A model generated the notes under the pieces. The model did not search any database. It saw only the letters and a program-made list of their open reading frames with translations, and was not told the origin of the DNA. The position numbers and the translations under genes are program-made. A stretch of DNA of 64,000 nt, taken from positions 31,504 to 95,503 of the forward strand of contig SIAO01000010.1 in the NCBI GenBank assembly GCA_009691765.1, in the 5' to 3' direction. This document shows positions 31,910-33,643 of the stretch, piece by piece. Source of the stretch: Planctomycetota bacterium (GTDB lineage: Bacteria > Planctomycetota > GCA-002687715). Numbering within the stretch: position 1 is the stretch's first letter; each line of letters begins with the position of its first letter.

Positions 31910-32470
31910 TCAGGCTTTCTTGCCGAACTTGGTGAGCGTGAACTCCTTGTTGCCTTCGAGCAGCTTTTTCACGATGCCTTCGCTCAAGCCGTCCGCCGAC
32001 GCGGTGAGCACGGTGACCGTGCTGGTATCGCCAAAGGGATACACCGCTACGACTCCATCCACTATCTTGAAGATCTCACGGATCTTCGCGCAAGTTTCGG
32101 CTCATCCAACGCCGTCGATGACGATGTCGAAACCTCCCTTGGGCTTGAGCCGCTCCACGGAGGCATAGGTGTGTACCGCAGGTTCCCACTTCAGCACTTT
32201 GAAGGCGGTGCCGATGTCTTCTTTCGTCGGCGCCTTCTCCTTGGCTTTGAAGGTGACTGTAGCCGTGGAATCCACGACGAGATCACTCACACCGGCCAGC
32301 TTTGTCAGAGTCTCACGGACCTGATTGGCCTTCACTGCGGCTCCTCAGCCGCCGCCGTTGGTGTAGGTGAGCACCCACACCGTTTCCTTCTCCTCGGGTT
32401 GTTGTGCCGTCAGCGTCACAGCGCTGAACGCCAGCAACAAACCCAAAGCACTGAGCATCGACAGTTTCAT
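31910..32470 (-). CDS. Putative secreted tandem-HMA-domain selenoprotein with two in-frame TGA (Sec) codons, 186 aa
   Basis: One continuous frame from ATG 32470 (SD GGAGG upstream) to TGA 31912-31910: MKLSMLSALGLLLAFSAVTLTAQQPEEKETVWVLTYTNGGG[U42]GAAVKANQVRETLTKLAGVSDLVVDSTATVTFKAKEKAPTKEDIGTAFKVLKWEPAVHTYASVERLKPKGGFDIVIDGVG[U123]AETCAKIREIFKIVDGVVAVYPFGDTSTVTVLTASADGLSEGIVKKLLEGNKEFTLTKFGKKA. In-frame TGAs at 32347-32345 and 32104-32102. Confidence 0.75.
32069..32087 (-). promoter_or_regulatory. Candidate bacterial SECIS hairpin downstream of TGA codon 123
   Basis: Minus-strand GAAGAUC-CGUGA-GAUCUUC: perfect 7-bp stem; loop begins 21 nt after the UGA; same CGUGA loop as the other hairpin. 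Confidence 0.65.
32305..32324 (-). promoter_or_regulatory. Candidate bacterial SECIS hairpin downstream of TGA codon 42
   Basis: Minus-strand UCAGGUC-CGUGA-GAC(U)CUGA: 7 bp with one bulged U; loop begins 27 nt after the UGA; G in the first two loop positions. Confidence 0.55.
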
Positions 32471-32638
32471 GGGCGAACCTCCGCGCGGCATCATCGCACG
32501 CGGGGCAGTAGCCCGCCAAGCGCTGTTTCGTATGTGGCGTGCCGCATTGCTACCCTGCCCAGCCCCGCGGCGCTCGTGTCGCATCCGGCGCAAGACGCGC
32601 TGGAATCCATTGCTCCCGGGAGCCTCAAGGAGCTTTTT

Positions 32639-33643
32639 ATGCTGCGCTGGATTCTCGTGTGCGCGATGTTGCTGCCGGTCGTGGCTCAAGAGCCCGCCGC
32701 CCCCGTTTGGATTGGCGATTTCGATAAGGCCGTGGAAATGGCCAAAACCACCAAGAAAGACCTGTTGGTGGACTTCACCGGGTCCGATTGGTGTGGCTGG
32801 TGCGTGAAGCTGGACAAGGAAGTGTTCGCCCACGAGGCCTTCCTGAAGGCGGCGCAAGCCAAGTACATCTTGGTGGCGTTGGACTTCCCCCAAGGCGAAG
32901 AGGTGAAGGCCAAGGTGCCGAACCCAAAGCGCAATGAAGAACTGCAGAAGAAGTACGAAGTCCGCGGGTTCCCCTCCATCTTGCTGATGGATGCGCAAGG
33001 CGATGTCTATGCGCAGACGGGCTACCAACCGGGTGGCCCCGAGGCGTATGTGAAGCACCTCGAAGAGATCGCAGCCAAGGGTCGCGAAGCGATTGCCACT
33101 GTGGCGGGTCTGCTTGCTCAAGTTGCGAAAGCCAAACCCACAGAGAAGCCTGCGGTGCTGGGCAAGGTGCTTGCGGCTCTGGAAAAACTTGATGCCGACT
33201 CCCCTGCGGCAGCGAAGTTGAAAGCCGTTGCCAAGGAAGCGTTGACCATCGACGCCGACAACAAGCTCGGATTGAAACTCAAGGCCGTGAAGGCACTGCT
33301 CAAGAGTGGTGACAGCGACCCTGCCCTCGTCGCAGCAGCCAAAGAGTTGGACCCGAAGAACGAGCAAGGCTTGCTCGAAGTGTGCGTCGTGATGCAATCC
33401 AACAGCGTCGATTCGGAGGAAGCGCTGAAGGTCGCGTTTAAGGCCATCGAGGACTTGGATGCCCTCGGTCCCATCAAGGATTCAGAAGCAGCACTGCAGC
33501 TCTATGCCAATGCAGCCTTCTGGAACAAGCGCTTTCTGAAGAACGACGAAGCGGCCAAGAAGTACGCAGCCAAGGCGCTGCCATTGGTCAAGGACAACGA
33601 AGGCCTCACCAAAGCGTTGCAGGGCCTCATCGACGGTCAGTGA
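32639..33643 (+). CDS. Secreted thioredoxin-like fold protein
   Basis: MLRWILVCAMLLPVVAQ signal; KKDLLVDFTGSDWCGWCVKLDKEVF (WCGWC), VRGFPSILLMDAQGDV. Confidence 0.85.
   Translation: MLRWILVCAMLLPVVAQEPAAPVWIGDFDKAVEMAKTTKKDLLVDFTGSDWCGWCVKLDKEVFAHEAFLKAAQAKYILVALDFPQGEEVKAKVPNPKRNEELQKKYEVRGFPSILLMDAQGDVYAQTGYQPGGPEAYVKHLEEIAAKGREAIATVAGLLAQVAKAKPTEKPAVLGKVLAALEKLDADSPAAAKLKAVAKEALTIDADNKLGLKLKAVKALLKSGDSDPALVAAAKELDPKNEQGLLEVCVVMQSNSVDSEEALKVAFKAIEDLDALGPIKDSEAALQLYANAAFWNKRFLKNDEAAKKYAAKALPLVKDNEGLTKALQGLIDGQ

Follow-up and report, generated by a model that had tools for sequence, protein, structure and literature searches.

The tandem HMA region of the ATPases CopA and ATP7B and the metallochaperones CopZ and MerP (PF00403) are known systems that share the fold discussed here, and all of them carry a CxxC motif, through which Cu(I) or Hg(II) is bound by two Cys. 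Selenocysteine (Sec, U) is known mostly from redox enzymes. HMA-like proteins containing Sec are already known, and two of them are represented by NCBIfam models. NF041115 (metal-binding (seleno)protein UxxU) is a one-domain model of 74 positions with a UxxU motif and Sec at the HMA-like metal-site position, and NF045683 (MerT/CopZ fusion-like heavy metal transport selenoprotein) is likewise Sec-containing with a CopZ-like part, but comprises 235 positions including a MerT part. A 2026 inventory of 119 prokaryotic selenoprotein families includes NF041115 as a 'putative mercuric reductase' with 2 Sec and holds no tandem, lone-U or UxxxC HMA protein (PMC13188914), and the main text of a study on planctomycete selenoproteins does not mention heavy metals (PMC4807772).

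The locus analyzed here very probably encodes an exported tandem HMA protein with two Sec and is not a pseudogene, an assignment that leaves the function of the protein aside. Like the tandem HMA region of CopA and ATP7B the protein has two domains in a row, and U falls on their first Cys position. It differs from these proteins as well as from CopZ and MerP in having Sec instead of the first Cys and a second Cys that is absent or shifted (UxxxC), and from CopA and ATP7B in addition by another arrangement of the domains and the lack of an ATPase. In comparison with NF041115 it has two domains with one Sec each and no UxxU, and it reaches 12.3 bits against this model (cut-off 95), whereas several relatives in the phylum give weak to moderate matches of up to 70 bits. 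The MerT-containing NF045683 is unlike the protein and is matched over a part of the model only, with 18.9 bits (cut-off 375). None of the family members tested reached a cut-off of NCBIfam release 20. As it stays below these cut-offs and is missing from the 2026 inventory (PMC13188914), we regard the tandem two-Sec form as new among Sec-containing HMA-like proteins.

The gene is located on the minus strand of the window, which is the whole stretch of 64,000 nucleotides that was analyzed. Its 187-codon frame extends from the ATG at 32470 to the TGA at 31912-31910 and is interrupted solely by the in-frame TGAs of codons 42 and 123, with neither TAA nor TAG, so that the single frame proposed in an earlier note on this DNA was borne out. 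The features of the locus are as follows:

31910..32470, minus strand: candidate gene for a tandem HMA protein with two Sec, 186 residues and a stop codon, based on homologues with both TGAs and on Ka/Ks
32477..32481, minus strand: Shine-Dalgarno-like GGAGG, read directly, about 7 nt 5' of the ATG; the same-genus relative has GAGG at the same place
32399..32470, minus strand: N-terminal signal peptide region, approximately residues 1-24, hydrophobic, assigned by eye; the N-terminus of the structure model is of low confidence
32345..32347, minus strand: TGA, predicted Sec codon 42 in domain 1, lone U; invariant in 21 aligned proteins
32304..32326, minus strand: SECIS-like hairpin 3' of codon 42 with loop CGUGA; 20.7 bits with the held-out model and rank 2 in the window; one mismatch in the 7-bp stem register
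32102..32104, minus strand: TGA, predicted Sec codon 123 in domain 2, UxxxC with C127; invariant in 21 aligned proteins
32067..32089, minus strand: SECIS-like hairpin 3' of codon 123, GAAGAUC-CGUGA-GAUCUUC; 27.6 bits with the held-out model and rank 1 in the window
31910..31912, minus strand: terminal TGA, true stop, not followed by a SECIS-like hairpin; TAG in the closest relative

Both the Shine-Dalgarno sequence and the export signal that had been claimed before were recovered, and the homologues contain signal peptides or lipoboxes as judged by eye, which is why we assume that the protein is probably located in the cell envelope. The terminal TGA is considered a true stop, because the closest relative has a TAG one codon further on. 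An open frame of 186 codons is weak evidence when taken alone, since about 3% of frames with this base composition would lack TAA and TAG by chance, and the case therefore rests on conservation.

In a search of 99 related genomes, a homologue from the same genus (76-77% identical) was found to carry both TGAs, and further homologues from the family, the order and the phylum are mostly 29-44% identical; each full-length homologue has exactly two TGAs. A family profile made from 12 two-TGA proteins was then run on 392 genomes of the phylum and yielded 23 matches scoring higher than 77 bits, which stem from 21 genomes and all contain two in-frame TGAs corresponding to positions 42 and 123 (a third TGA listed for one of them is its own terminal stop). 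Profile matches without TGA all remained below 55 bits in these 392 genomes, and those whose sequence was read turned out to be ordinary CxxC HMA proteins or domains with neither Cys nor Sec at the site, and a cysteine version of the tandem family was not found in the 392 genomes. U42, U123 and Arg131 are the only invariant residues in an alignment of 21 proteins, which share 18-77% identity with the window protein. When the frame is divided into three segments at the TGAs, Ka/Ks between the gene and its nearest relative is 0.13, 0.17 and 0.25, respectively, which indicates at the sequence level that purifying selection acts across both TGAs. The idea that the gene has decayed or results from an assembly error, with the TGAs as ordinary stops, has nothing in its favor beyond the presence of the stops and its probability is negligible, as the same two TGAs occur in 21 separately assembled genomes and Ka/Ks is low throughout. 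The conserved TGAs and the purifying selection exclude a pseudogene or sequencing error for practical purposes. No family members were found in viral contigs or plasmids, and a narrower alignment searched against genome contigs recovered only two relatives. One homologue (L022, G003:C23) has an added N-terminal HMA-like domain with neither Cys nor Sec at its metal site.

The source genome, an assembly of 28 contigs with 2.58 Mb and a completeness of 90%, contains selA, selB, selD and tRNA-Sec, with selB and selD above the cut-offs. The tRNA-Sec gene is found about 100 nt past selA with a score of 78 bits and is independently called as tRNA-Sec with anticodon UCA by ARAGORN. A tRNA-Sec was detected in 19 of the 21 genomes carrying the family versus 230 of the 392 genomes of the phylum overall (Fisher p 0.001), and the two carriers without a detected one are fragmented and 77-84% complete. 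That TGA is read through in this gene would also be expected if UGA were reassigned to Trp or Gly, or if a different tRNA suppressed it, but the presence of selA, selB, selD and tRNA-Sec, the coincidence of the U columns with HMA Cys positions and the use of TGA as the commonest stop in the 64-kb window, where it ends 26 of 37 long ORFs, leave this explanation with hardly any probability. The earlier view that TGA is an ordinary stop here and that the code is not reassigned is in line with these counts.

A SECIS-like hairpin follows each of the two TGAs. When the DNA of the homologues was aligned by the conserved Arg codon only, a 7-bp stem with a CGUGN loop appeared after nearly every Sec codon. 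With this anchoring and eight possible pairs, 252 of 312 cells are standard pairs compared to 202 +/- 5 in shuffles (222 at most in 2000 shuffles), and sliding the register reduced the 252 cells of the true register to 105-141. Among 37 distinct hairpin sequences and seven pairs, 90.7% of the cells pair and six of the seven pairs vary at both positions, with a covariation score of 0.57 versus 0.26 in shuffles. One outlier hairpin (L023_2) was removed by hand from alignment A5 and kept in the count of 252/312. A hairpin model built without the genus of the window ranked the two hairpins of the gene as the top two matches in the 64-kb window. In a scan of the whole genome with the full-data model, three HMA hairpins were the top three matches, all of them being part of the training set, and apart from these three no convincing hairpin of a further selenoprotein was found. 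The regions after the TGAs have a lower folding energy than control positions (mean z -1.1 versus -0.3, p 2e-6); for TGA 42 of the window gene alone this test, which is weak there, was negative, and the stem of this first hairpin is imperfect. The conserved Arg codon falls within the CGUGN loop and may partly constrain it. As the hairpins moreover stem from homologous genes, we consider the covariation of the stem the stronger evidence, and the covarying hairpins fit a bacterial SECIS as far as can be judged from sequence comparison. The selD gene of the same genome (L036, G000:C23:5453-6373) has an in-frame TGA within the GGGUASK loop, followed by a hairpin unlike those of the HMA genes, which argues against the CGUGN loop as a general SECIS signature in this genome.

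In the mechanism we propose, SelB and tRNA-Sec would insert Sec at UGA 42 and UGA 123, guided in each case by the hairpin starting about 15-23 nt downstream, and the third UGA, which lacks a hairpin, would terminate translation. The two-selenocysteine gene put forward in the earlier note is thus backed by the TGAs kept in homologues, the Sec machinery, the hairpins and the purifying selection through both TGAs.

The predicted product consists of two HMA-type (ferredoxin-like) domains with one Sec each at the position of the first metal-binding Cys. An AlphaFold model with Cys in place of Sec (pLDDT 91, pTM 0.81) contains two beta-alpha-beta-beta-alpha-beta units, and U42 and U123 are placed just before the first helix of their domain. 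With Foldseek, the model matched best to the tandem HMA region of CopA and ATP7B, and single domains gave a TM of 0.81 versus CopZ, whereas the relative placement of the two domains in the model is unlike that in the CopA and ATP7B structures. Sequence profiles recovered the same HMA proteins with E of about 1e-9 when the Sec columns were masked, and likewise with Cys in them. With Cys for Sec, the window protein alone misses the gathering cut-off of PF00403 (23.1 versus 24.8 bits), and nine of 12 family members match this family at E <= 0.01, the best one at 1.8e-22. The tandem HMA fold suggested before is therefore found by profile as well as by structure prediction. Both U columns align on the first Cys of the GMTCxxC motif of HMA proteins. 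This agrees with the former assignment for domain 2 and corrects that for domain 1, whose U had been described as shifted by two residues: it is only the spacing between U and the conserved Arg that differs (10 and 8 residues for domains 1 and 2, respectively). A CxxC metal-binding motif is absent from the window protein, which has a lone U in domain 1 and UxxxC in domain 2. The proposed Sec-containing loops stand in so far as Sec is conserved in both domains, but the partner Cys of domain 2 is not: C127 is the sole Cys of the mature protein and is not conserved in the alignment of 21 proteins, so that the conserved feature is Sec and not a U/C pair. Many family members have no Cys at all past the signal. 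The predicted decoding, fold and position of the Sec residues can be regarded as well supported at the sequence level.

Further Sec-containing proteins were seen alongside. The same genome encodes a secreted one-domain HMA selenoprotein (L002, G000:C7:6286-6600) with the motif GMTUAGSC (UxxxC) and a perfect 8-bp hairpin, and relatives of it (L032, L058) occur in the same genus. HMA-like forms with UxxC, UxxxC, UxxU and UxxxU were found in other genomes. A secreted tandem HMA protein with four in-frame TGAs and UxxxU in each domain (GMSUGVSU and GMTUGVTU; L092, G110:C220) is a candidate four-Sec protein. One contig bears a cluster of small proteins that are exported and have their TGAs in pairs (UATU, UGEDU and UAGU; L093, G154:C33; L065; L066), apparently a local expansion of proteins containing Sec. 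An HMA-like multi-domain protein with two adjacent TGAs (WGRUUGKN; L090, G030:C158) contains either a real Sec-Sec pair or an error.

Concerning the function, we lean towards a carrier or trap for soft metal ions in the cell envelope, e.g., Cu(I), Ag(I), Hg(II) or organomercury, with the selenolates as ligands, which is the likeliest of the functions considered and has a somewhat better than even chance. Soft-metal binding is favored over redox catalysis because the fold is that of a metal carrier and Sec is found at its metal site. An argument against a role in metal binding is the frequent lack of the second ligand in the family. No conserved partner gene, metal genes included, was found beyond the genus in the neighborhoods of 20 homologous loci, and the neighbors in the window are a thioredoxin-like protein and carbohydrate-active enzymes. 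The former (32639-33643, plus strand) is a divergently oriented, exported protein with a WCGWC motif, which adjoins the gene only within the genus.

An HMA-fold protein with two Sec could also perform redox work such as the reduction of peroxides or disulfides instead of binding metal. In favor of this are the UxxxC motif of domain 2, the ability of a lone Sec to act as a peroxidatic residue and the thioredoxin-like neighbor, which is conserved in the same genus. A redox role is also presumed for the majority of known selenoproteins (PMC13188914). As the neighbor is not retained outside the genus, C127 is not conserved and U is placed on the metal ligand of a fold of the metal-carrier type, we regard redox work as rather unlikely, though worth considering. 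The presence of several Sec in such a small exported protein, with as many as four in one relative, and the existence of members without Cys might also point to a protein that mainly carries or stores selenium or guards against an excess of it, with no metal role. A storage protein would need neither the HMA fold nor the restriction to one Sec in each domain, always placed at the metal site, both of which are kept, and this reading seems very improbable.

Returning to soft-metal binding, the many members without Cys in the mature protein imply that the two Sec act as a pair or that each of them binds alone. We tentatively suggest, at somewhat less than an even chance, a Sec-only HMA branch in which the selenolate is the sole conserved ligand and the two Sec (or four, as in one relative) would join in a selenium clamp on one soft metal ion or in a diselenide between the domains. 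To our knowledge, such chemistry has not been described for HMA proteins.

Since no tested member reaches the NCBIfam release 20 cut-offs, current annotation of these bacteria probably splits such genes at TGA. In the tandem family Sec takes the place of the metal-binding Cys in a fold that is classic for metal carriers, frequently leaving the mature protein without any Cys, and this, together with the lack of a Cys version in 392 genomes, makes the idea of Sec as a dedicated metal ligand testable.
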